Positions 3,913 to 34,007 of a stretch of DNA of 34,075 bases are shown here, piece by piece; the stretch's first letter is position 1; each line of letters begins with the position of its first letter. Under the pieces are notes generated by a model. The model was not told the DNA's origin and searched no databases. It saw nothing but the letters and a program-made list of their open reading frames with translations. The stretch comes from Caulobacteraceae bacterium (GTDB lineage: Bacteria; Pseudomonadota; Alphaproteobacteria; Caulobacterales; Caulobacteraceae). A program made the translations under genes and the position numbers. Location of the stretch: NCBI GenBank assembly GCA_028290905.1, contig JAQGIW010000313.1, positions 1 to 34,075 on the forward strand, given 5' to 3'.

Positions 3913-5097
3913 ATGCCAGACATCGAAATATTCGACTCGGACAACCATTACTACGAGGCTCGCGACGTGTTCTCGCGTCACATGGAGCCGAAGCTGCGCG
4001 ACAAGCAGGTGGACATTCACACCGCCGCCGACGGCCAGGAAGTCATTACCGCCTGCGGTCGCCGGTTCAACTTCCTCGACGACATCCGCTTCAACTTCGA
4101 CACTGCGCCCAGGCCGGGTTCGCTGCGCGAGTTTCTTAAGGCGATCAAGGAAGACAACGTAAAGGACTCTACGGTTTGGGAGCCGATCCGTCGCGAGGCC
4201 GTCGACCGCACCGCCCGCATCCGTTTCATGGATGAACGCAGGATCGACGCCTGTTTCCTGTTCCCGACGCTAGGGGTGTGCCTCGAGCCCATGCTGAAGG
4301 ACGACCCGCAGGCGCTGCAGGCCAACTACCGCGCCTTCAACCGGTGGCTGGACGACGATTGGGGCTTTGCCCGCGACGGGCGCATCTACGCGCCGCCGAT
4401 GATCTCGCTGACCGACCTGGACGCCGCCGTCGCCGAGCTGGAATGGGCGATCGGGCGCGGCGCGCGGATGATCGCCATGCTGCCCGGCCCCGTGGCGGGA
4501 CGGGCGCCGAGCGACCCCTGTTTCGACCCGTTCTGGAGCCGAGCGAACGAGGCCAAGCTGACGCTGGCCTTCCATATCGGCGAGTCCGGCTACAACCAGA
4601 TGTTCAGCACCTCTTGGGGGGAGAATCCGTGGCCCTCCGCTCACCAACAATCGGCGTTCCAGTGGACGCTCTTCTATGGTGACCGCCCGATCATGGATAC
4701 GATCGCCGCCCTGATCTACCACAACTTCTTCGGCCGCTTCCCGAACATCAAGGTGCTTTCGGTGGAGAACGGGTCAGGCTGGGCCCCCTACCTGATCAGC
4801 GCCATGGACAAGATGAAGGGCATGGGCCGCAACGGTCCCTGGCCGGGCGGCCGGATCACGGAAAGGCCCAGCGCGATCTTCCGGCGGCACATCTTCGTCA
4901 ATCCCTTTCACGAGGAGGACCACGTGGCGCTGAGCGCTCTGATCGGACCCTCCCAGGTTCTGTTCGGGTCGGACTATCCGCACGCCGAGGGGCTGGAGGC
5001 GCCCGAAAGCTTCCTGGCCGAGATCGAAGATCGGATGCCGCAGGATGAGGTGCGCATGATCATGGGCGACAACGCCCGCCGGCTGGTGACGGCCTGA
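3913..5097 (+). CDS. Amidohydrolase family 2 (ACMSD-like) protein
   Basis: Metal-dependent TIM-barrel hydrolase or decarboxylase of the amidohydrolase-2 family, which includes ACMSD, gamma-resorcylate decarboxylase and related enzymes. The N-terminus has the degenerate metal motif IFDSDNHYYE where many members have HxH. The mid-barrel histidine is in LAFHIGESG and the C-terminal metal aspartate in LFGSDYPHAEG. At 394 residues it is of normal length. A clear AGGAGTG site precedes the ATG. The stop codon overlaps the start of the next SDR (TGATG). Members with this signature are frequent in aromatic, terpenoid and steroid catabolic clusters of sphingomonads and actinobacteria. Decarboxylation or hydrolysis of a ring-derived acid is a reasonable inference, not a proof. 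Confidence 0.87.
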   Translation: MPDIEIFDSDNHYYEARDVFSRHMEPKLRDKQVDIHTAADGQEVITACGRRFNFLDDIRFNFDTAPRPGSLREFLKAIKEDNVKDSTVWEPIRREAVDRTARIRFMDERRIDACFLFPTLGVCLEPMLKDDPQALQANYRAFNRWLDDDWGFARDGRIYAPPMISLTDLDAAVAELEWAIGRGARMIAMLPGPVAGRAPSDPCFDPFWSRANEAKLTLAFHIGESGYNQMFSTSWGENPWPSAHQQSAFQWTLFYGDRPIMDTIAALIYHNFFGRFPNIKVLSVENGSGWAPYLISAMDKMKGMGRNGPWPGGRITERPSAIFRRHIFVNPFHEEDHVALSALIGPSQVLFGSDYPHAEGLEAPESFLAEIEDRMPQDEVRMIMGDNARRLVTA

Positions 5098-5876
5098 TGG
5101 CCGACGCCGAGGGGGACTTCGCCGGCCAGGTAGCCCTGGTCACGGGGGGCGGTGGGGCCACGATCGGAGGGCCGACCGCCCTGGCTTTCGCTCGCGCAGG
5201 CGCCGATGTCGTGATCTGCGACTTCCACGCCCGGCGCCTGGGCGAGTGGGCGACGCGGATACGCGACGAGACCGGCCGCCGGGTGCTCGACTTCCACCTC
5301 GACATTGGCGACCGGCCGTCCGTGGACACCATGCTCGAGGTCGCCGGGCGCGAGCTGGGCGGCGTGGACATCCTGATCTGCAACGCCGCCGAAAACATCC
5401 TGGGCAAGATCCTGGACTATGATCCGGCGGACTGGGACCGCACGATCGACGTGAGCTTGAGCGCCAACTTTTACCTGGCCCGCCACGTGCTGCCGCACAT
5501 GGTGCAAAACCGGCGTGGCGCAATCGTCAACATCGCTTCCATCGCCGGCTGGGTGGGAGACCCGAATCCAGATCGCGGCGAGCCGGCCTATTCGGTGGCC
5601 AAGGCGGGCATGTTCGCGCTCACCCGCAACATCGCCGCCGAGGTCGGTCCCCATGGCGTGCGCTGCAACTGCGTCGCGCCCGGGCTGATCTGGTCGCGCT
5701 TCGTCGAGAAGTACGAGCCGGAGATGCGCAAGTTCCGCGAAGCGACGCCGCTCCGCCGATATGGCGCATCGGACGACGTGGTCGAGGCGATCCTGTTCCT
5801 GGCCTGCGAACGCCGTTCGGGCTTCATCACCGGCGAGACGATCAACGTCAGCGGCGGCTACTACATGCGGCCCTGA
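5097..5876 (+). CDS. SDR family oxidoreductase
   Basis: Complete 259-residue classical SDR. The cofactor site is TGGGGATIGG, followed by VVICDFHARR, where the acidic residue after the second strand favours NAD(H). NAAEN replaces NNAG. The catalytic residues lie in IVNIASIAG and YSVAK, followed by CVAPGLIWSRF and a C-terminal GETINVSGGYYMRP. It starts on an ATG that overlaps the amidohydrolase stop and ends 12 bases before the acyl-CoA ligase. It probably acts as an alcohol dehydrogenase on a pathway intermediate. It is distinct from the two other SDRs in the window. Confidence 0.92.
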   Translation: MADAEGDFAGQVALVTGGGGATIGGPTALAFARAGADVVICDFHARRLGEWATRIRDETGRRVLDFHLDIGDRPSVDTMLEVAGRELGGVDILICNAAENILGKILDYDPADWDRTIDVSLSANFYLARHVLPHMVQNRRGAIVNIASIAGWVGDPNPDRGEPAYSVAKAGMFALTRNIAAEVGPHGVRCNCVAPGLIWSRFVEKYEPEMRKFREATPLRRYGASDDVVEAILFLACERRSGFITGETINVSGGYYMRP

Positions 5877-5888
5877 GGGACGAACCTC

Positions 5889-7496
5889 ATGGACATCGGC
5901 TTCGACTATGCGGCCCACGGCCTCCGGCCTTCCCGGCGCCCGCCGATTCCCGGAGGTCGGGCGACGATCGCGGCGCTCTTGGCCGCCGCCCGTGAAGCTT
6001 GTCCGGACAGGGTCGCGCTCGTGGGGCGAAGCGGCCGCCTGTCCTATGAACAACTTGCCGCTGTGGTAGATCGCGCCGCCTGGGCGCTGAGCGCGGCCGG
6101 CATCGGACGCTTCGACCGGGTTGCGGGCTCGCTGCCCAACGATGTGGACCTGGTCATCGCTTTTCTGGCGACGCTCCGCATGGGGGCGATCTGGGTCGGC
6201 TTGCCCAGGGTCCTCTCGCTGCCCGAAAAGCGGTTCATCCTGGAAGACGCCGGCGTCTCGCTATTGCTCGCTGAGAGGGGTGTCGCGGCCCAGCTGCGGA
6301 CTTCCTCCGAAACCCCGATCCTGGCGGAAATCTGGGCCGGCGACCCAGGTGACGCTTCCAGCGATTGGTCGAGGCGCCTGCAGGCCGCTCCGGATCGGCC
6401 CTTTGTCGCCGCACCGATCGACCCCCATGCTCCGGCTGCGATCGCCTACACCAGCGGCACGACGGGCTTCCCCAAGGGCGCGGTGCATAGCCAGCACAAT
6501 TTGCTGACGCCCGGCGCGGTGCTGGCGGCGACCGGCGATTTCGGCCCGCGGGACACGACCGGCGTCGTCCTGCCGCTGACCATTCCAAACCTGATGGTCG
6601 TCGGTCCGCTCGCCTTGTTCCAGGCCGGCGGCCGCTGCGTCGCCATCGACCGGACCGACCCGGTGGGCCTGGCCGAGTGGATCGGGCGCGAGCAGATCAA
6701 TCACATGACGGCCGTGCCGACCCTCTATCATGACCTGTTGTCGCGAATGGACCTCGCCGAAAGCCTCCGCAGCCTCACGCGTCCGGAGGTCGGGGGCGCC
6801 GACATGCCGGAGACGCTGCGCCGGCTGTTCCGCGAGCGGTTCGGACGGGAGGTGCAGGTCGCATACGGACTGACGGAAGCCCCGTCCCGCGTCACCTGGC
6901 ATCAGGACGATCGGGCGGTTCCGGACGCTTGCGGCAAGGCCTGTCCCCATCTGGCCATATCCATACAGGACGACAGAGGCCGCGCGGCGGCGGCGGGCGA
7001 CGTTGGCGAGATATGGGTCGGCCCCCGCGACGAGGGGCCCTTCAAGGACGTGTACACGCCGTTTCTGGGCTACTGGCGCGCGCCGGAGGCGACGGCGCGA
7101 ACCTTGCGCGATGGATGGTTGGACACCGGCGACCTGGGCTGCGTCGACGCGGCGGGCAATCTGTTCATTCGGGGCCGCCGCAAGGAGTTGATCCTGAGGG
7201 GGGGCGCCAACGTGTACCCCGCTGAGGTCGAACGCGTACTGTGCGAAGACCCGAGAGTCGCCGCCTGCGCCGTGATCGGGACGCCGGACGTCCGTCTGGG
7301 CCAGCAGGTGGTCGCCTTCGTCCAGTTCACTCCGGGCGCCTCGGCAGCGGCGGACGAACTGCGGACGCTCTGCGAGGCGAATCTCGCGCGCTACAAGATT
7401 CCCGTCGCGTTCCACGTGGTCGACGCTTTTCCCCGCAACGTCATGGGAAAGATCGTCAAGCCGAAACTGGCGGAACTGCTCCTGGGCGTGACCTGA
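5889..7496 (+). CDS. Acyl-CoA synthetase / AMP-dependent ligase
   Basis: ANL-superfamily adenylate-forming enzyme of 535 residues that would activate a carboxylic acid to its CoA thioester via an acyl-AMP. The P-loop-like motif is YTSGTTGFPKGAVHS (about 180-195). The A5-type motif is YGLTEAPSRVTW. The hinge region is GWLDTGDLGCVDAAGNLFIRG, then RRKELILRGGANVYPAEVE. The catalytic lysine lies near the C-terminus in PRNVMGKIVK. It is the last gene of the first plus-strand operon and converges with the MFS gene, only 7 bases separating the stop codons. Substrate class (aryl, aliphatic or terpenoid acid) cannot be assigned. Confidence 0.92.
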   Translation: MDIGFDYAAHGLRPSRRPPIPGGRATIAALLAAAREACPDRVALVGRSGRLSYEQLAAVVDRAAWALSAAGIGRFDRVAGSLPNDVDLVIAFLATLRMGAIWVGLPRVLSLPEKRFILEDAGVSLLLAERGVAAQLRTSSETPILAEIWAGDPGDASSDWSRRLQAAPDRPFVAAPIDPHAPAAIAYTSGTTGFPKGAVHSQHNLLTPGAVLAATGDFGPRDTTGVVLPLTIPNLMVVGPLALFQAGGRCVAIDRTDPVGLAEWIGREQINHMTAVPTLYHDLLSRMDLAESLRSLTRPEVGGADMPETLRRLFRERFGREVQVAYGLTEAPSRVTWHQDDRAVPDACGKACPHLAISIQDDRGRAAAAGDVGEIWVGPRDEGPFKDVYTPFLGYWRAPEATARTLRDGWLDTGDLGCVDAAGNLFIRGRRKELILRGGANVYPAEVERVLCEDPRVAACAVIGTPDVRLGQQVVAFVQFTPGASAAADELRTLCEANLARYKIPVAFHVVDAFPRNVMGKIVKPKLAELLLGVT

Positions 7497-13480: not shown

Positions 13481-13870
13481 CTACTCGGCGCCGAGGGGGA
13501 CGTCCTTGGCGCCCTGGGCGGAGTCGAAATACTCTTCCAGCCGGGTAATCCGGCCGTCCTTCACCTGGGCGACCACGGCGATGGGAACGGTCAGCTCCTG
13601 ACCTGAGCCCTTCACCCGCCCTCTACAGACATGCTGGCGAAGAAAGCCGCCGGGGATCTCGATCTGCCTGACGTCCTCGTATCGGAAGTTCTCTACGTTG
13701 GCGCAGAGCCAGCGCAGGGTGTCAATGTTCACCGCTGGACCCTTTACCGTATTGTCGGTATTATGCCAGATGATCGCGTCGGGCGCGTAGATCCTCGCAA
13801 CCTTGTCAAGCTCGCCCGATGCGACGGCGTCGAAAAAGCCGTCGGCGACGGCGAATACACTGTCGGCCAT
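13481..13870 (-). CDS. SnoaL-like / NTF2-fold protein
   Basis: Protein of 129 residues with the NTF2/SnoaL cone fold. The helical N-terminus VADGFFDAVASGELDKVARIYAP is followed by the strand IIWHNTDNTVKGP and later paired strands (RQHVCRGRV, IAVVAQVKDGRITRLEEYFD). Members include polyketide cyclases, ketosteroid-isomerase relatives and limonene-epoxide-hydrolase-like proteins. AGGGAGCA precedes the ATG. Its neighbours are an SDR on one side (convergent) and TetR on the other (divergent). Isomerisation or hydrolysis of a pathway intermediate is possible; the catalytic residues cannot be assigned with confidence. Confidence 0.82.
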   Translation of the reverse strand: MADSVFAVADGFFDAVASGELDKVARIYAPDAIIWHNTDNTVKGPAVNIDTLRWLCANVENFRYEDVRQIEIPGGFLRQHVCRGRVKGSGQELTVPIAVVAQVKDGRITRLEEYFDSAQGAKDVPLGAE

Positions 13871-27421: not shown

Positions 27422-27811
27422 CTAAATCCGCTGAAGCGGTTCGATGACATGGCCCTCGTTGTCTGTGGCCATCGCGTATTTCAAGCTGGCTTCCGGCAGA
27501 GCTTTCACCGGGCTGGTCACAGACCCGCCGGCCGCGACCAGGCGCTCCAGGAAGGCGTCTATGTCGGCGGTATAGAAGCCCAGCACGCTGTCGCCGCGCG
27601 GGGCGACGGGTTCGCCATGATAGGTGATCAGGATCAGCGTGGCCGGTGCGGGCGGATCGCTGGCGAGGATGATCTCCGTCAGCGTCCGACCGTCGGATTC
27701 GGCGCTGATCCGGTCGACCTCGATCAGGCCGCAGACGTCGCGATAGAAGGCCGCCGATCGCTCGAGGTCGCCGACGATGAGTTTGGTAAAGGTGAAGGCG
27801 CCGTCAACCAT
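27422..27811 (-). CDS. VOC family protein (glyoxalase/dioxygenase fold)
   Basis: Vicinal-oxygen-chelate protein of 129 residues with two beta-alpha-beta-beta-beta modules: TKLIVGDLERSAAFYRDVCG opens the first, and SVLGFYTADIDAFLERLVAAG the second. It ends GHVIEPLQRI, containing the usual metal-ligand glutamate. The N-terminal histidine ligand is not evident (FTFTKLIV), so metal binding may be altered. Glyoxalase, resistance and ring-cleavage enzymes share this fold, so a specific reaction cannot be named. It is divergent from tmoA across a 192-base spacer containing a long inverted repeat, and may share regulation with the monooxygenase. Confidence 0.85.
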   Translation of the reverse strand: MVDGAFTFTKLIVGDLERSAAFYRDVCGLIEVDRISAESDGRTLTEIILASDPPAPATLILITYHGEPVAPRGDSVLGFYTADIDAFLERLVAAGGSVTSPVKALPEASLKYAMATDNEGHVIEPLQRI

Positions 27812-27887
27812 GGGTTTCCCTTTTTCGATCTCTGCCAGACGCGAACCGCGCGGCTACCACGAACGTACTATCAATCCCACCGGGCCT

Positions 27888-27921
27888 GCTGCGTGAGCGC
27901 GGAACCGAGAGCTCACGCAGC
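27888..27921. repeat. 11-base perfect inverted repeat in the VOC/tmoA spacer
   Basis: GCTGCGTGAGC (27888-27898) and GCTCACGCAGC (27911-27921) are exact reverse complements around a 12-base loop. The repeat lies 82 bases before the tmoA start. It could be a regulator-binding site for the divergent pair, or a leader hairpin controlling tmo transcription. It is not followed by a T-run, so simple termination is unlikely. Confidence 0.6.
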
Positions 27922-28003
27922 GCCAGGAGCCGCTGCGGATTGCCCGCGACGGCGTGACGGTCTACCCTGAGCACACCCTTTACCGATGCAGGAAGATCGC
28001 GGC

Positions 28004-29494
28004 ATGCTGCTCGATCGAGACGATTGGTATGGTGTCGCGCACGATCTTGAGTGGTCGCTGTCCTATGTCGAGCATGAAGACGCTTTTCCGGACGCATGGA
28101 CCGGATCAAACGGTATCCCGCGCGAGGCGTGGCGCGCCTGGGAGGAACCGTTCCGCGTATCCTACCGCGATTACGTGGCGGTTCAGCGTGAGAAAGAAGC
28201 CGGCGTAGCCGGCGTGCGCGACGCTCTCAAACGATCTCGCGTCTACCAGAATCTGCATCCATCGTTTGCCGCAGTCTCCCACCTTCACATGGGGGCGACA
28301 TGCATGATCGAGCAGATGGCGGTGATGATGCTCGGGAGATTCGCGCGATTTGCGCCCAGCCCGCGATGGCGAAACATTTCCGTATTCGGCATGTTGGATG
28401 AAATCCGTCATGCGCAGCTTGACCTCTTGTTTTCACATGATTTACTCAAGTATGACTCCCGGTTTGATTGGTGCCAGAAAGCGTTTCACAGCAATGAATG
28501 GGCCATCATCGCCATTCGAAGTTTCTGTGACGACTGGATGCTGGATACAAACTGTATCGATGCCGCCTTAGCCGTGAATCTTACTTTCGAGCACGGATTT
28601 ACTAATATGCAATTCGTCGCCCTCGCCGCGGACGCAATGGAAGCGGGCGACGTCGGATTCTCGAACCTGTTGTCGAGCATTCAGACCGACGAGGCGCGCC
28701 ACGCGCAGCAGGGCTTTCCAACTCTGGAAGTTCTCATGAAGCACGATCCGGAGCGCGCCCAGCGTGTGCTCGACGTCAGCTTCTGGAGGTCATTCCGGCT
28801 GTTCCAGGCAATGACTGGGCCCGCGATGGACTACTACACGCCGCTCGATAGACGGACCATGTCGTTCAAGGAGTTCATGCTGGAATGGGTTGTCGACCAG
28901 CACGAGCGAACCCTGCGCGACTATGGTCTCAAACGGCCCTGGTACTGGGATACGTTTTTGCAATCTCTCGAGCACGGCCACCATGCTCTGCATCTGGGAA
29001 TGTGGTTCTGGCGCCCAACCCTGTTTTGGAAGCCGAGCGCGGGTGTTTCCAAGGTGGAGCGGCGTTGGCTCAACGACAAGTATCCGAGTTGGGAAGACAG
29101 CTGGGGCGTGCTGTGGGACGAAATCATCCAAAACGTCAACCACGGAAGGATGGCGCAAACCCTGCCAGAAACCCTACCGGCGCTCTGCAACCTGACCCAG
29201 CTTCCGATCGGCACACATCTGGATCGCCATCATCTCGAGTGCGTTACCAGGGAACATCATGGCCGCATGTATTATTTCGATTCCGAGGTCTCGAAATGGT
29301 GCTTTGAGCAAGAGCCGGAGCGCTATGCGGGCCACCTGAACGTTGTCGATCGATTCGTCGCCGGCTTGATCCAGCCGGCGGATCTTTCCGGTGTACTACA
29401 ATGGATGGGGCTTACCCCCGACGTGATGGGAGACGACGCCGTGGACTACAGTTGGGCGCGCGACTACCTCCCTGACGCGCAATCGGCTGGGTAG
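28004..29494 (+). CDS. tmoA: Toluene-4-monooxygenase-type diiron hydroxylase, alpha subunit
   Basis: Large subunit of a soluble diiron monooxygenase (TmoA/TouA/TbuA1 group) that hydroxylates aromatic rings with O2. Counting from this ATG, the carboxylate/histidine ligands are Glu103 (CMIEQ), Glu133 and His136 (DEIRH), Glu196 (FEHGFTNMQF) and Glu230 and His233 (TDEARHAQQG), each one less than the T4MO numbers. SSIQTDE and GPAMDYYTPLDRR are family hallmarks, as is the 496-residue length. ATG at 28004 has AGGAAG upstream and fits the family N-terminus; ATG at 27986 is an alternative. By recalled alignment, T4MO pocket residues Ile100 and Gly103 are Thr and Ile here, hinting at a changed substrate or position preference. 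Confidence 0.95.
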   Translation: MLLDRDDWYGVAHDLEWSLSYVEHEDAFPDAWTGSNGIPREAWRAWEEPFRVSYRDYVAVQREKEAGVAGVRDALKRSRVYQNLHPSFAAVSHLHMGATCMIEQMAVMMLGRFARFAPSPRWRNISVFGMLDEIRHAQLDLLFSHDLLKYDSRFDWCQKAFHSNEWAIIAIRSFCDDWMLDTNCIDAALAVNLTFEHGFTNMQFVALAADAMEAGDVGFSNLLSSIQTDEARHAQQGFPTLEVLMKHDPERAQRVLDVSFWRSFRLFQAMTGPAMDYYTPLDRRTMSFKEFMLEWVVDQHERTLRDYGLKRPWYWDTFLQSLEHGHHALHLGMWFWRPTLFWKPSAGVSKVERRWLNDKYPSWEDSWGVLWDEIIQNVNHGRMAQTLPETLPALCNLTQLPIGTHLDRHHLECVTREHHGRMYYFDSEVSKWCFEQEPERYAGHLNVVDRFVAGLIQPADLSGVLQWMGLTPDVMGDDAVDYSWARDYLPDAQSAG

Positions 29495-29501
29495 ATGACG
29501 G

Positions 29502-29756
29502 ATGGCGATCATTCCAGTTTATGGACGGTTCGTTGGCGACTTCACCGCCCACCTGGTGGCCGTCGACACCGAGGACACGATCGACGAAGTCGCGACCAAG
29601 ATAGCGGCGCACGCCATCGGCCGCCGGCTGCCGCGGCAGCCTGGCGCGACAGGCCTGGAGGTAGTGGCCGAAGGTCGGACGCTCGCTCCGACCTCCCGCC
29701 TGAAGGATTTCTCGCCGCGACCGCTGCAATGGCTGGACGTGCGTTGGAAATGGTAG
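29502..29756 (+). CDS. tmoB: Toluene monooxygenase hydroxylase gamma subunit
   Basis: Small 84-residue subunit of the hydroxylase, ubiquitin-like in known structures. It reads IPVYGRFVGDFTAHLVAVDT, then DTIDEVATKIAAHAIGRR, comparable to the T4MO gamma chain (FPVHAAFEKDFLVQLVVVD, DSMDQVAEKVAYH). It completes the alpha-beta-gamma hydroxylase with TmoA and TmoE. It starts seven bases after tmoA and its end overlaps the start of the ferredoxin gene, consistent with translational coupling. Confidence 0.92.
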   Translation: MAIIPVYGRFVGDFTAHLVAVDTEDTIDEVATKIAAHAIGRRLPRQPGATGLEVVAEGRTLAPTSRLKDFSPRPLQWLDVRWKW

Positions 29757-30112
29757 AATTTGCAAGATCTCGGGACATCGGCGTCGTCGAGATTTGTGGC
29801 GTCGACCAACTTTGGGACGGCGAGATGCAGCTCTTCCGTGCAGGCGCTACGAGCGTCCTCCTTCTCAAGATCAACGGGCAGTACCACGCCTATCAGGGTC
29901 GCTGTCCTCATCAGGGCGCCGCGCTGGTGGACGGTGACCTCGATGACGGACTCCTGACCTGCCCCGCGCACCGATGGCAATTTGACGCTACGAACGGAAG
30001 GGGCGTGAACCCCGAAAGCGCCCGCCTGAAGTGTTTTCCGGTTCACGTCGTTGAACGGAAGGTATTGGTTGAAGTGGAGCTCGGCGGCGTCAACGCCGAG
30101 CCGGAGCCATAG
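29750..30112 (+). CDS. tmoC: Rieske-type ferredoxin of the toluene monooxygenase
   Basis: Rieske [2Fe-2S] ferredoxin of 120 residues that passes electrons to the diiron hydroxylase. Cluster ligands are Cys52 and His54 (CPHQG) and Cys71 and His74 (CPAHRW), the standard CxH-CxxH spacing. The end (NPESARLKCFPVHVVERKVLVEV) matches the family. ATG at 29750 overlaps the tmoB stop region (ATGGTAG) and fits the ferredoxin N-terminus; the frame is open further upstream through tmoB without meaning. No reductase to feed it is visible in the window. Confidence 0.94.
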   Translation: MVEFARSRDIGVVEICGVDQLWDGEMQLFRAGATSVLLLKINGQYHAYQGRCPHQGAALVDGDLDDGLLTCPAHRWQFDATNGRGVNPESARLKCFPVHVVERKVLVEVELGGVNAEPEP

Positions 30113-30151
30113 CCGCTTTGCGGCAGCCATCCGAAACGGAGGACGCTCTTG

Positions 30152-30460
30152 ATGGCGAGTGAGACCAGCAGAGGCGACGAGACGGACAATTTCGTCGGTC
30201 CGGTCATCCGCGCCGGGGATTTCGCCGATGTGGTGGCGCGGTCAATCGAAGACGACAACCCAGGCAAGGAAGTGCGGATCGTCGATCGCGGCGACTATGT
30301 GCGGATCCACACGGCTCAGGTCTGCCGCCTGACTCGAAAAGCCTTGGAACGACATCTGGGGCATTCGTACGAGTTGCGGATGCTGGAGATCGAAATGCCG
30401 TCGTTTTGCGGCCGACTCAGGACCCGCGATGACGAATATGTCTGGTTCTACGACCACTGA
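30152..30460 (+). CDS. tmoD: Toluene monooxygenase effector (coupling) protein
   Basis: Cofactorless effector protein of 102 residues that binds the hydroxylase and tunes oxygen activation. The conserved start NFVGPVIRAGDFADVVARSI is followed by DNPGKEVRIVDRGDYVRIHT and LTRKALERHLG, the T4MO effector pattern (NVGPIIRAGD, DNPGKE, YVRI, LTRKTLE). ATG at 30152 with GGAGG upstream is preferred over a TTG one codon earlier. The TmoE frame can be read from an ATG overlapping its 3' end. Confidence 0.93.
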   Translation: MASETSRGDETDNFVGPVIRAGDFADVVARSIEDDNPGKEVRIVDRGDYVRIHTAQVCRLTRKALERHLGHSYELRMLEIEMPSFCGRLRTRDDEYVWFYDH

Positions 30461-30497
30461 CGGCTCAGCTGGGCGCGAGCCGCGCGAGGAGACGCGG

Positions 30498-31508
30498 ATG
30501 GACACTGGAAACTCGGAAGAACTTCGCCGGCCACCGCTCAAGACCTGGTCCGCCTTCGGAAATTTGGGCCGTCGGCCCAGCGAGTATGAGATCGTCACTC
30601 ACCAGATGAACCACACGTTGCGAGACAAGCCGCTTGAGATTGGTCCCGACAGGCATGGCAATCGCTGGCTCGTGCGACACCGAGACGCCGCCAAGTTCGC
30701 GGTCAAGGATTGGGACGGGTTCCGCGATCCCGACCAGCTCACCTACCGGAAATACGTGACGTCCCAGGACAACAGCGAAACCTATCTCGATGCGGTGCTA
30801 CAAGAGTTCGATCAGCTCGGCCGCGCCGAGACAGCGCCGGACTTTCTGCAAGCCTGCCTGACGCCGTCACGTTACCTGGCGCATGGACTGCAGATGATGT
30901 CTGCCTATCTGCAGCAGCTGGCGCCTTCAGCCTATGTCGGCAATTGCGCGGCCTTCCAGACCGCTGATCACCTGCGTCGTGTCCAGCGTGTGGCCTATCG
31001 CACCAAGCAGCTCGATCGAACATATCCGGGGCGTTCATTCGGAACGACTGAACGGCGTGCGTGGGAGCAGGCGCCGGCGTGGCAGGGACTACGCAAAGGA
31101 ATCGAGCGGTTGCTCGTCGCCTTCGATTGGGATGACGCCTTCGTGGGCCTCAACCTCGTGGTCAAGCCTCTCGCCGACGAACTCACTCTACGACAGTTCG
31201 CGGTGGCGGCGCGACACCTCAACACCGAGCTCGATGCGCTGGTGGCCGACAATCTGTTTCTCGACGCCGAGCGTAGCCGCCGGTGGTCCGCCGCGCTTAC
31301 CCGGTTTGCGATCGCCGAAGATAGCGTCAATCTCGGGCGTCTCCATACGCTGATCGCCAAATGGCGCCCGCTGGCGGACGAAATCGTGGAGACCGGGAGC
31401 CGCTTGTCGGAGGCCTTCTTGCCCGGGCTTAACTCTTCCGATCAGATAGCGGCTGCGGCCGTGGGCGCCTGGCGAAGCTTCCTGGAAGAGGCGGGCCTTC
31501 AGGCCTAA
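30498..31508 (+). CDS. tmoE: Toluene monooxygenase hydroxylase beta subunit
   Basis: Beta subunit of the hydroxylase, 336 residues from this ATG. It has the diiron-oxygenase ferritin-like fold but no iron ligands. Family features are LKTWSAFGNLGRRPSEYEIV near the N-terminus, then SQDNSETYLDAVLQEFDQ and LTPSRYLAHGLQMMSAYLQQ, followed by a long helical C-terminal half. ATG at 30498 has GAGGAG six bases upstream; an earlier in-frame ATG at 30429, inside tmoD, would add 23 residues not typical of the family. In known operons tmoF follows; here a histidine kinase follows after 16 bases. Confidence 0.93.
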   Translation: MDTGNSEELRRPPLKTWSAFGNLGRRPSEYEIVTHQMNHTLRDKPLEIGPDRHGNRWLVRHRDAAKFAVKDWDGFRDPDQLTYRKYVTSQDNSETYLDAVLQEFDQLGRAETAPDFLQACLTPSRYLAHGLQMMSAYLQQLAPSAYVGNCAAFQTADHLRRVQRVAYRTKQLDRTYPGRSFGTTERRAWEQAPAWQGLRKGIERLLVAFDWDDAFVGLNLVVKPLADELTLRQFAVAARHLNTELDALVADNLFLDAERSRRWSAALTRFAIAEDSVNLGRLHTLIAKWRPLADEIVETGSRLSEAFLPGLNSSDQIAAAAVGAWRSFLEEAGLQA

Positions 31509-31524
31509 ACAGAGGAGTGTTCCG

Positions 31525-32970
31525 ATGGATACGCACCTGTCGACCAGATCGCTGCGCAGAACCGGGCTGGATGTCTTGGGCGATCGTCCCTGGGGCAGTC
31601 ATTTCTGTCTATTCTTCGACACCAAGAGCGATCTCCTCGATATTCTGGTGCCCTATTTCAAGACAGGGCTCGCTCAGAACGAATTCTGTTTTTGGATTCT
31701 GGCTGACCCGCTCACCGAAGACGACGCGAGGCGTGCGCTACATCAGGCCCTTCCCGCCTCGGATCGACACCTGATCGATCGACAAATGGAGTTCATACCC
31801 TGTGAGGAATGTTATCTGAGCGATGGGGTCTTCGATCTCGATCGCGTGGCAGGCGGGTGGAAAGCGCGCCTCAGCGACGCTCTCTCGGCTGGCTACGACG
31901 GCATCAGAGTGACCGGCAGCACCGGTTGGTTGCATACGCGAGAGTGGGCGGATTTCTGGAAATATGAGGCGACGCTCAACGAGTCCATCACCGATCAGCC
32001 AATGACGGTGTTGTGCACCTATCCCCTTGAGGATAGCGGCGGCTGCGACATCCTCGATGTGACGCATACCCATCAATCCGCTATCGCCAAGCGCGGCGGC
32101 AATTGGGAGGTTATCGAAACGGCCGCTCTGAAAGATGCGAAGGAGGAAATCCGAAAGCTGAACGAAGAACTCGAACAGCGTGTCGTCGAGCGCACCCAGG
32201 AACTGCGGGTCGCCCAGGCCGAGCTCGCGCGCGCCGAACGATTGACCACGATGGGTCTGCTGGCGGCGTCGATCACGCACGAAATCGCCCAACCGATCTC
32301 CGCGATGGTCGCCGATGGCGGTTCGTGCCTGCGCTGGCTGGAAAACGCGCAGCCCAATCTGGAGGAGGCGCGTGACGCGGCGCGCCACATTGTGGACAGC
32401 GGAAATCGGGCCGCCGACGTGTTCCGAAGCATTCGCTCACTCGTGCAAAAGGCCGAGCCGCGCGTGGCTCGATTGGATCTCGACACGGTGATCGAAGAGG
32501 TCCTGGTCCTTGCCCGGGGCGAGTTGCGGCAGCAGAACGTCGTGGTGCGGACTGAAGTGGAGGGCCATTTGCCAACGGTTCTCGGCGACCGGATGCAGCT
32601 GCAGCAAGTCTTGCTCAATCTGATCATGAACGCCGTTCAGGCGATGTCGGGCGTGAATGATCACTCTCGCGATCTGTTCATTCGATGCACGATGAATACC
32701 CCGGAAGGTGGGGTCCTCATCGTGGTGGAGGATTCCGGAACCGGGTTCGACGCCGGCGCTGGAGAGCGCATTTTCGAATCGATGTTCACGACCAAAGCCG
32801 GCGGCATGGGCATGGGATTGTCGATCTCACGTTCGATCATTGCCGCGCACGGAGGCCGGATTTGGGCCTCGCCAGGGGAATCTGTCGGCGCGATCTTCCG
32901 GATCCTCCTGCCGTCGGAGGGCGGCGCCGAGGGCAATCAGATCAATTCAAGCGTGACCGCTGCGGGCTAA
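31525..32970 (+). CDS. MEDS-domain sensor histidine kinase
   Basis: Cytoplasmic hybrid of an N-terminal MEDS (methanogen/methylotroph, DcmR sensory) domain and a histidine kinase, 481 residues. Residues about 15-190 carry the MEDS pattern: GSHFCLFFDTKSDLLDILVP with His26 and Cys28, then GYDGIRVTGSTGW and CTYPL. Residues 201-240 form a coiled coil. The phospho-acceptor is His252 in SITHEIAQPISAM. The ATPase domain shows NLIMNAVQAM, VVEDSGTGFD and GGMGMGLSISRSI. No membrane segment is seen. AGAGGAGTG precedes the ATG, 16 bases after tmoE, so it is likely co-transcribed. It may sense the aromatic substrate or its metabolite. No response regulator is encoded before the IS element. Confidence 0.93.
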   Translation: MDTHLSTRSLRRTGLDVLGDRPWGSHFCLFFDTKSDLLDILVPYFKTGLAQNEFCFWILADPLTEDDARRALHQALPASDRHLIDRQMEFIPCEECYLSDGVFDLDRVAGGWKARLSDALSAGYDGIRVTGSTGWLHTREWADFWKYEATLNESITDQPMTVLCTYPLEDSGGCDILDVTHTHQSAIAKRGGNWEVIETAALKDAKEEIRKLNEELEQRVVERTQELRVAQAELARAERLTTMGLLAASITHEIAQPISAMVADGGSCLRWLENAQPNLEEARDAARHIVDSGNRAADVFRSIRSLVQKAEPRVARLDLDTVIEEVLVLARGELRQQNVVVRTEVEGHLPTVLGDRMQLQQVLLNLIMNAVQAMSGVNDHSRDLFIRCTMNTPEGGVLIVVEDSGTGFDAGAGERIFESMFTTKAGGMGMGLSISRSIIAAHGGRIWASPGESVGAIFRILLPSEGGAEGNQINSSVTAAG

Positions 32971-33130: not shown

Positions 33131-33946
33131 GGTGCTGTCAGTCTAACGGCAACTCGTCTCCGGCGAGTACAGCTTGGCCAAACCCGTCGATGCTCTATCC
33201 CATGACTGCGCGCCGCTCGGCTAGGGCGGCGGAGCGTCTCTCCTTGTAGATTTCCCGGCTGATGAGATGGCGTTCCTGGTTGAAGTGGTTGTGAACTGAG
33301 CCGTGGACCGAGGCGAATTTCTGGAGTGTTTTCATCCTGCGGAATCTGAACATCGCCCGTTCTCGTCGCCGGAAGGGGAGATGGGAGTTTTCGACCCTGT
33401 TGTTGGCCCAGCGGCCCACCTCCTGACGATCGGCGTTGCTGATCTCCTTCATGGCCGCCTTGTATGACCTCAGCCCATCCGTCGTGATCTTCCGTGCTTG
33501 GCCGTGGCGTTTCATCAGCTTCTTCATGAACGTCAGGGCCGCGGCTTTGTCCCGCTCCTTGGTGGCGAAGGATTCAAGCACCTCGCCCTCCTGGTCGACC
33601 GCTCGCCAGAGGTAGTGCATCTGGCCGTTGATCTTCACGTAGACCTCGTCGAGGTGCCAGCGCCAATGGGTGTAGGCGCGCATGTGTTGGACACGCTTAC
33701 GCCGGATCTCGGCGGCGAACATCGGCCGAAACGGTTCCACCAGAACCGCACGGTCTCATGGCAGATATCGATGCCCCGCTCGGCGAGGAGGTCCTCAACG
33801 TTGCGCAGGGACAGGGGGTACTTCACGTACATCCTCACCACGAGGCGGATCACCTCAGGCGACGAGTTGAAGCAGCGAAACGGGTTGGTCATCCGGCGTA
33901 CGTAGGGCAGGGCGGTTACCGATCGGCTAATTGCTCTGACACTGCC
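33131..33946 (-). mobile_element. IS6-family insertion sequence (about 816 bp)
   Basis: Ends are placed by imperfect inverted repeats: GGTGCTGTCAG at 33131 and, read on the minus strand from 33946, GGCAGTGTCAG. A transposase of IS6 type fills the interior. No matching 8-base target duplication is seen at these ends, so the boundaries are approximate or the flanks have recombined. It sits 160 bases after the kinase gene. The 160-base gap (32971-33130) has no gene. Two GGGTCAA repeats (33002-33008, 33011-33017) there may be a scar of another element. Confidence 0.75.
33195..33892 (-). pseudogene. IS6-family DDE transposase, frameshifted
   Basis: The N-terminal part from ATG at 33892 reads NPFRCFNSSPEVIRLVVRMY, then SLRNVEDLLAERGIDICHET and WWNRFG, the IS6/IS26 helix-turn-helix region. 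The catalytic part continues in another frame: PMFAAEIRRKR, HWHLDEV-like WRWHLDEVYVKING (first Asp), ITTDGLRSYKAAM (second Asp), NRVENSHLPFRRRER (Glu). The frames meet near 33722, where one C appears to be missing (GGCCGATG for GGCCCGATG). Unless this is a sequencing error, the element is not autonomous. Confidence 0.8.
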
Positions 33947-34007
33947 CCGCGGCCGCATGACGATCGATTGGCCCAGCGGACCTTCGCGGCTCGGCCGAGT
34001 TAACCTG

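Follow-up and report, generated by a model that had tools for sequence, protein, structure and literature searches.

What controls a soluble di-iron monooxygenase (SDIMO) whose genes run into that of a sensor kinase, and which protein reduces its ferredoxin when no reductase gene adjoins them? This question is raised by a 34075-base contig of a Caulobacteraceae bacterium, analysed here over its full length (the window; contig C88 of an assembly of 5.23 Mb, 317 contigs and 96% completeness), towards the end of which the SDIMO genes A to E are followed directly by the gene of a histidine kinase with a MEDS domain. We read the locus, with a probability of about 55%, as an oxygenase module that belongs to the isoprene/propene-monooxygenase (Iso/Xamo) clade, regulates itself and was acquired horizontally. 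In it the MEDS kinase would be the sensor and the reductase would be encoded at an unlinked site. The same arrangement, A to E with a MEDS kinase and without the reductase gene F, is present in two proteobacterial classes.

The window contains the A-B-C-D-E set in the order of TmoABCDEF. As an earlier note on this DNA had claimed, the five genes stand in the canonical order. All are intact as judged by their open frames and their Pfam domains (Phenol_Hydrox with YHS, TmoB, Rieske, MmoB_DmpM and Phenol_Hydrox, respectively), which, like MEDS and HATPase_c of the kinase, exceed the curated cut-offs. The range given in that note for the cassette, 27422-32970, ends correctly at the kinase stop, but starts too early and takes in a minus-strand gene of the VOC type (Table 1). 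The end of B and the start of C share 7 bases. From the stop of E at 31508 to the ATG of the kinase at 31525 there is a gap of 16 bases, with AGAGGAG ahead of the ATG, and no reductase gene adjoins, both as noted before. Together with a gap of only 2 bases in the counterpart described below, this suggests that E and the kinase gene are read as one transcript. A search for a promoter of the kinase itself gave one sigma-70-like match, within the kinase gene, against 1.5 expected.

The frame of the kinase is fully open. HisKA was unreported by Pfam; by eye an H-box (SITHEIAQP), an N-box and G-boxes were recognized, and the transmitter matched the FixL model NF041777 best (8e-49, under the cut-off of that model). 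No PAS domain was found by Pfam. By hydropathy the protein is soluble, its highest 19-residue value being 1.16 with no membrane-like stretch. An AlphaFold2 model of the MEDS domain, built on a two-row alignment, reached a mean pLDDT of 46.

The counterpart lies in locus L024 of a gammaproteobacterial metagenome-assembled genome (MAG), where A to E are likewise without F and a MEDS kinase gene begins 2 bases past E. A kinase unconserved beside the oxygenase genes would have counted against the earlier note; in L024 it holds the same position. The identities between the two loci are 79% for A, 60% for B, 53% for C, 67% for D and 64% for E. The L024 kinase is a 743-aa MEDS-PAS-HisKA-HATPase-receiver hybrid with its PAS behind the MEDS, and the transmitter halves of the two kinases differ. 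Their MEDS domains are 60% identical (61% including the following stretch), and a tree of 12 rows joins them as sisters (95/98). None of the ten further MEDS domains in the comparison exceeds 47% identity with the window domain. That the MEDS domains are alike although the transmitters differ was counted in favour of the proposed module.

Seventy-nine cluster sources were scanned for MEDS genes, of which 20 were dropped because E or the 1.4 kb after E was missing. In the remaining 59 a MEDS gene was present in two, the window and L024, and all 79 sources yielded no others. The comparison of gene order that had been proposed earlier thus produced a second locus with a MEDS kinase, but only two cases in 59 clusters, and a general link of MEDS to this group of monooxygenases was rejected. 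Within the class, MEDS was found in 4 of 289 sampled genomes, the own genome included (E<=1e-25); on viral contigs none of 11 stretches was confirmed as a MEDS relative. The own genome encodes on another contig, C112 (L096 4761-5597), a MEDS protein of 278 aa whose DNA-binding domain is of the LuxR type; it is the one that shares 47% with the window MEDS, and it might be either a partner or a sensor working in parallel. A small protein that looks receiver-like by eye is encoded 0.5 kb from it.

The identity of the oxygenase was studied on its alpha subunit. A scan of genome contigs, one genome per species, with two exact heptapeptides (MSFKEFM and PWYWDTF), which misses relatives with neither of them, gave 71 relatives. 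When further members were sought in the own class, 15 of 385 genomes had a match at E<=1e-100, and only the own genome and G564, that of L029, had one of at least 70%. In a tree of 75 rows the window and L024 were sisters (100/99) inside a 20-row Iso/Xamo clade (100/100). This tree carries the warning that the long branch L085 joins the clade; after removal of L085, L057 and L071 the placement in a 72-row tree was the same (100/100 and 100/100). In both trees toluene-type rows stand in for TmoA of P. mendocina. The closest relative is L024 (79%), and IsoA of Variovorax WS11 shares 72% (71-72% for WS11, a Polaromonas MAG and Ramlibacter WS9 together). On annotated plasmids XamoA of Xanthobacter Py2 came out on top at 65.5%, and proteins of the toluene-monooxygenase type did not exceed 51.7%. 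The best matches in the PDB were toluene-4-monooxygenase and toluene/o-xylene monooxygenase (E about 1e-172 to 1e-168). The trees and identities rule out a toluene-4-monooxygenase, and the designation 'toluene-4-monooxygenase-type' of the earlier note had to be abandoned. In the trees the window and L024 constitute a subclade of their own in the isoprene/propene monooxygenase clade. The Gram-negative genera with iso clusters include Variovorax and Ramlibacter, according to the available text of PMC12917321. Two alphaproteobacterial loci (L070 5193-10602 and L076 544-5887) have two alpha genes per cluster in the order A-B-A-C-D-E, and their copies pair across the loci in the tree.

In gene A all six iron ligands and the catalytic threonine are conserved, at the sites that we assume to have these roles. 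At the pocket site F176, a name that presumably follows the numbering of the toluene enzymes, cysteine occurs solely in the window and L024; the 81 alpha subunits otherwise have Phe (65), Met (10) or other residues (4). At sites 100/103/141/176/192/196 the window reads T/I/D/C/V/F, and the 14 other Iso/Xamo rows shown read mostly T/V/D/F/T/V, all 14 differing from it at T192. The toluene-type rows L017, L018, L044 and L010 have I/A or G/Q/F/L at the first five of these sites. These residues suggest that the substrate range may differ from that of the relatives.

The absence of F was followed through the clade with a profile of 36 F reductases, in those members that have at least 1.4 kb after E (18 of the 20; L035 and L038 were dropped for too little DNA, and L040 lies outside the tree). 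F stands next to E in 10 of the 18 clusters, and eight (window, L024, L026, L029, L030, L031, L032 and L039) have no intact adjacent F. A missing F was therefore rejected as the peculiarity of the locus. L029 was placed among the eight although a simple rule scores F from a 28-bit piece: directly after its E lies a 65-residue F fragment (13591-13785; 43% over 47 residues), an apparent remnant, and a whole-genome search with eight F proteins found no F in its MAG at E<=1e-10. For L030 a true F is unlinked, on another contig (G102:C69; L111 4981-5979; 408 bits, 48% to XamoF). The Acetobacteraceae Iso-clade cluster L032 carries directly after E a GR-type (BphA4-like) ferredoxin reductase (5037-6263), a swap of reductase type. 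L024 has no F and no remnant of it in the 8.0 kb past E, and the best reductase in its genome, from the search that gave the true F for L030, scores 220 bits with 32% identity to XamoF.

The search for a TmoF-like reductase suggested in the earlier note was run on the own 96%-complete assembly with eight F proteins, and no reductase of the F type was found. This agrees with the view expressed there that the Rieske ferredoxin is reduced by a protein encoded elsewhere, if the assembly is complete here. The sole Fer2-FAD-NAD reductase found (235 bits, 28% to XamoF) is that of a second SDIMO on C7 (L008 1233-5316, minus strand), which consists of an alpha-type subunit, this reductase and a second Phenol_Hydrox subunit, an order that we take to resemble that of propane monooxygenases. 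Two more reductases are both without a Fer2 domain. Finally, one GR-type ferredoxin reductase, found via its C-terminal family, is encoded on C87; with the L032 reductase it shares 42%, and its neighbour is by eye a 2Fe-2S ferredoxin. In the accessible part of PMC9004368, IsoC was reduced by the T4MO reductase and not by that of a three-component alkene monooxygenase, and IsoMO lost no activity when the added reductase was left out of a cell lysate supplemented with the other components. These results favour, without proving it, the C87 protein over the C7 reductase. Most likely, the C87 protein feeds the Rieske ferredoxin C; the C7 reductase is the less likely donor.

With regard to regulation, a perfect inverted repeat with 11-base arms 12 bases apart lies 5' of gene A. 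A pattern with 10-base arms occurs once in the window and in 0 of 100 shuffles, and the own genome has one exact site and one site with three mismatches on C15, against 0 for a control pattern. As an operator common to both loci the repeat was rejected, because it was unseen in L024.

Genes for the further degradation were also sought. According to the available sections of PMC10057887, isoGHIJ and aldH adjoin the iso genes 'nearly always'. A search of the own genome gave no IsoI homologue at E<=0.001, and a control search of the WS11 genome gave a 100% match. In BLAST of the window, to which the search for G, H, J and aldH was confined, IsoG was matched at 33% and IsoH at 25%, and IsoI, IsoJ and aldH had no match at E<=0.001. 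That the bacterium degrades isoprene in the usual way, with the pathway genes dispersed, seems hardly credible in view of these results and of the pocket, where the change of F176 to Cys is unique to the window and L024 and that of T192 to Val is foreign to the 14 other Iso/Xamo rows. As for an epoxyalkane:CoM transferase, none was recognized: the best frame in the own genome (C282) shares 28.6% with XecA and 30.3% with EtnE, and XecA and two EtnE share 46-50% with each other across genera. A distant functional analogue may nevertheless be present.

That the module was acquired by transfer is suggested by the few matches among relatives and by the lower GC of the cassette. Among 99 relatives, the own genome included, matches at E<=1e-20 were found only in the own genome and one order mate (50% identity). 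The GC of the cassette is 57-62%, and 22 of the 27 preceding kb-steps are at 65-72%.

As we picture it, the hydroxylase of A, B and E, with the Rieske ferredoxin C and the effector D, would epoxidize most likely an alkene. The cytoplasmic MEDS kinase, probably encoded by the last gene of the same transcript, would bind this alkene or its epoxide and signal to an unlinked response regulator, which would turn the operon on, with the inverted repeat as candidate operator; sensor and enzyme would then rise together in a positive feedback. Without a dedicated IsoF/TmoF, electrons would reach C from a reductase at another locus, for which the GR-type protein of C87 is the likeliest candidate. A tentative extension, which we regard as possible rather than probable, is that the subclade, previously undescribed, swapped its own reductase gene for a MEDS sensor kinase of its own. 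It would then be a mobile sense-and-oxidize module that draws electrons from the general GR-type ferredoxin reductase of the host and is fitted into different host phosphorelays by swaps of the transmitter half. Its substrate would be an alkene, but neither isoprene nor propene, as the Cys in place of F176 and the Val in place of T192 at both loci might suggest.

Several observations weigh against a self-regulated, acquired module. The arrangement is known from two genomes only, both fragmented assemblies and one a MAG, and sampling of the order of L024 gave 1 of 396 genomes, which was that of L024 itself. The position of the window and L024 within the Iso/Xamo clade is weakly supported (82/35; 80/38). 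Low GC (58-64%) also occurs in five kb-steps elsewhere on the contig. No response regulator was identified for the kinase, no inverted repeat was found 5' of A in L024, and the reductase in the L024 genome sits at a contig start, where its upstream neighbours are unseen. F may lie elsewhere, given the completeness of 96% and a contig that ends 1.1 kb past the kinase in an IS6-type element. The Methylohalobius MEDS protein showed no rise with ethylene in the available text of PMC11507031. Also, the annotated MEDS loci that are closest in sequence (Azospirillum, Mesorhizobium, Caballeronia and Methylocystis) list no oxygenase nearby, which implies that MEDS alone is no proof of hydrocarbon sensing. 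These MEDS loci fit in with the idea that the kinase is a passenger, which came to lie behind E in the common ancestor of both loci and has another regulatory target, so that the oxygenase is constitutive or under another regulator. The differing transmitter halves and the cassette without a response regulator would suit this as well. However, the adjacency outlasted a split down to 79% identity in A and 53-67% in B to E, across two classes, the short gaps point to a single transcript, and the half that was conserved is the MEDS and not the transmitter. A passenger is thus considered unlikely.

More improbable still is a decaying or truncated isoABCDEF operon, in which F has disappeared or was severed by the IS6-type element, leaving the enzyme idle or reliant on partners met by chance. 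In its favour are the split transposase and the contig end within 0.2-1.1 kb, and the eight of 18 clusters without intact adjacent F. The F fragment of L029, whose MAG gave no F at E<=1e-10, indicates that F decay does occur in the clade. Yet no frame of the cassette is broken, from gene A to the kinase, and catalytic residues are conserved; in L024, too, neither F nor a remnant of it was found in the 8.0 kb past E.

The self-regulated module resembles several known systems in part. With IsoABCDEF of Variovorax WS11 and Rhodococcus AD45 it shares the A-E order, the group-1 SDIMO type with a Rieske ferredoxin and the high alpha identity to WS11; it differs in having no isoF and no nearby isoGHIJ/aldH set, and in the MEDS kinase after E, the Cys at F176 and its own subclade. 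XamoABCDEF of Xanthobacter autotrophicus Py2 has the same order and belongs to the same larger clade, but its F overlaps E and an epoxide-CoM pathway lies downstream, neither of which was found here. Toluene-4-monooxygenase and toluene/o-xylene monooxygenase have the same domain set and iron ligands; they fall in another clade (relatives at about 52% or less) with other pocket residues, and the window operon is without F. TodS/TmoS-type kinases sense through PAS domains, which the window kinase lacks. MEDS kinases of Methanosarcina and of proteobacterial plasmids (Methylocystis, Azospirillum, Caballeronia) have the MEDS-transmitter architecture, whereas the latter three share 39-45% in MEDS and have no oxygenase listed beside them.

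Precedents exist in EtnR1/EtnR2 of Mycolicibacterium chubuense NBB4, where a MEDS sensor is encoded at an alkene monooxygenase. EtnR2 is the proposed sensor of the ethene monooxygenase etnABCD in the consulted portion of PMC8784404, and for Methylohalobius a MEDS-HTH protein is predicted as alkene/epoxide sensor in that of PMC11507031. The suggestion in the earlier note that a MEDS kinase couples sensing to oxygenation in a new way therefore stands for the kinase form, but not for MEDS as such. EtnR2 has 198 aa, too short for a histidine kinase, with a CdaR-type partner, lies upstream of a group-4 SDIMO and shares 29% with the window MEDS. As far as our searches go, in the accessible parts of a mostly open-access literature, no MEDS histidine kinase has been recognized at a group-1 SDIMO; within the same limits the parts are known, and their combination and its conservation are new.

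If the proposed reading is right, this would be a group-1 alkene oxygenase that comes with a candidate sensor of its own, and two questions would become open to test, namely which ligands MEDS domains bind and which reductases feed the Rieske ferredoxin in vivo. Enzymes of the Iso/Xamo type act on climate-active alkenes. In the available text of PMC12917321 isoA is a marker for isoprene degraders; members without isoF, and in which no isoI was found, could be miscounted as such.

Table 1. Features at the 3' end of the window.
Feature	Position	Strand	Remarks
VOC/glyoxalase-type gene	27422-27811	minus	unrelated to oxygenase cassette
Candidate operator, perfect inverted repeat GCTGCGTGAGC-N12-GCTCACGCAGC	27888-27921	none	5' of gene A
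Gene A, hydroxylase alpha subunit, Iso/Xamo-clade SDIMO	28004-29494	plus	PF02332 and YHS; open frame from 27986
Gene B, gamma subunit, TmoB family	29502-29756	plus	PF06234, 85.2 bits
Gene C, Rieske ferredoxin	29750-30112	plus	PF00355, 67.9 bits; CPH...CPAH motif in sequence
Gene D, coupling/effector protein	30152-30460	plus	PF02406, 78.8 bits
Gene E, hydroxylase beta subunit	30498-31508	plus	PF02332, 191.7 bits; alternative start 30429
Soluble MEDS histidine kinase, 481 aa	31525-32970	plus	MEDS 148 bits (cut-off 29.8), HATPase_c 75.6 bits
MEDS sensor domain of the kinase	31600-32076	plus	60% identity with MEDS of L024 kinase
IS6-type transposase, two frames	33195-33958	minus	at contig end

The kinase stop is followed after about 0.2 kb by the IS6-type transposase and, 1.1 kb past the kinase, by the end of the contig; the split of the transposase may reflect a break in the assembly or an inactive copy. 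On the other side of the cassette, positions 1-24528 of the window are by eye a large catabolic region with SDRs, two acyl-CoA ligases, crotonases and a CoA transferase, along with an OYE-like protein, a TonB receptor and MFS transporters.

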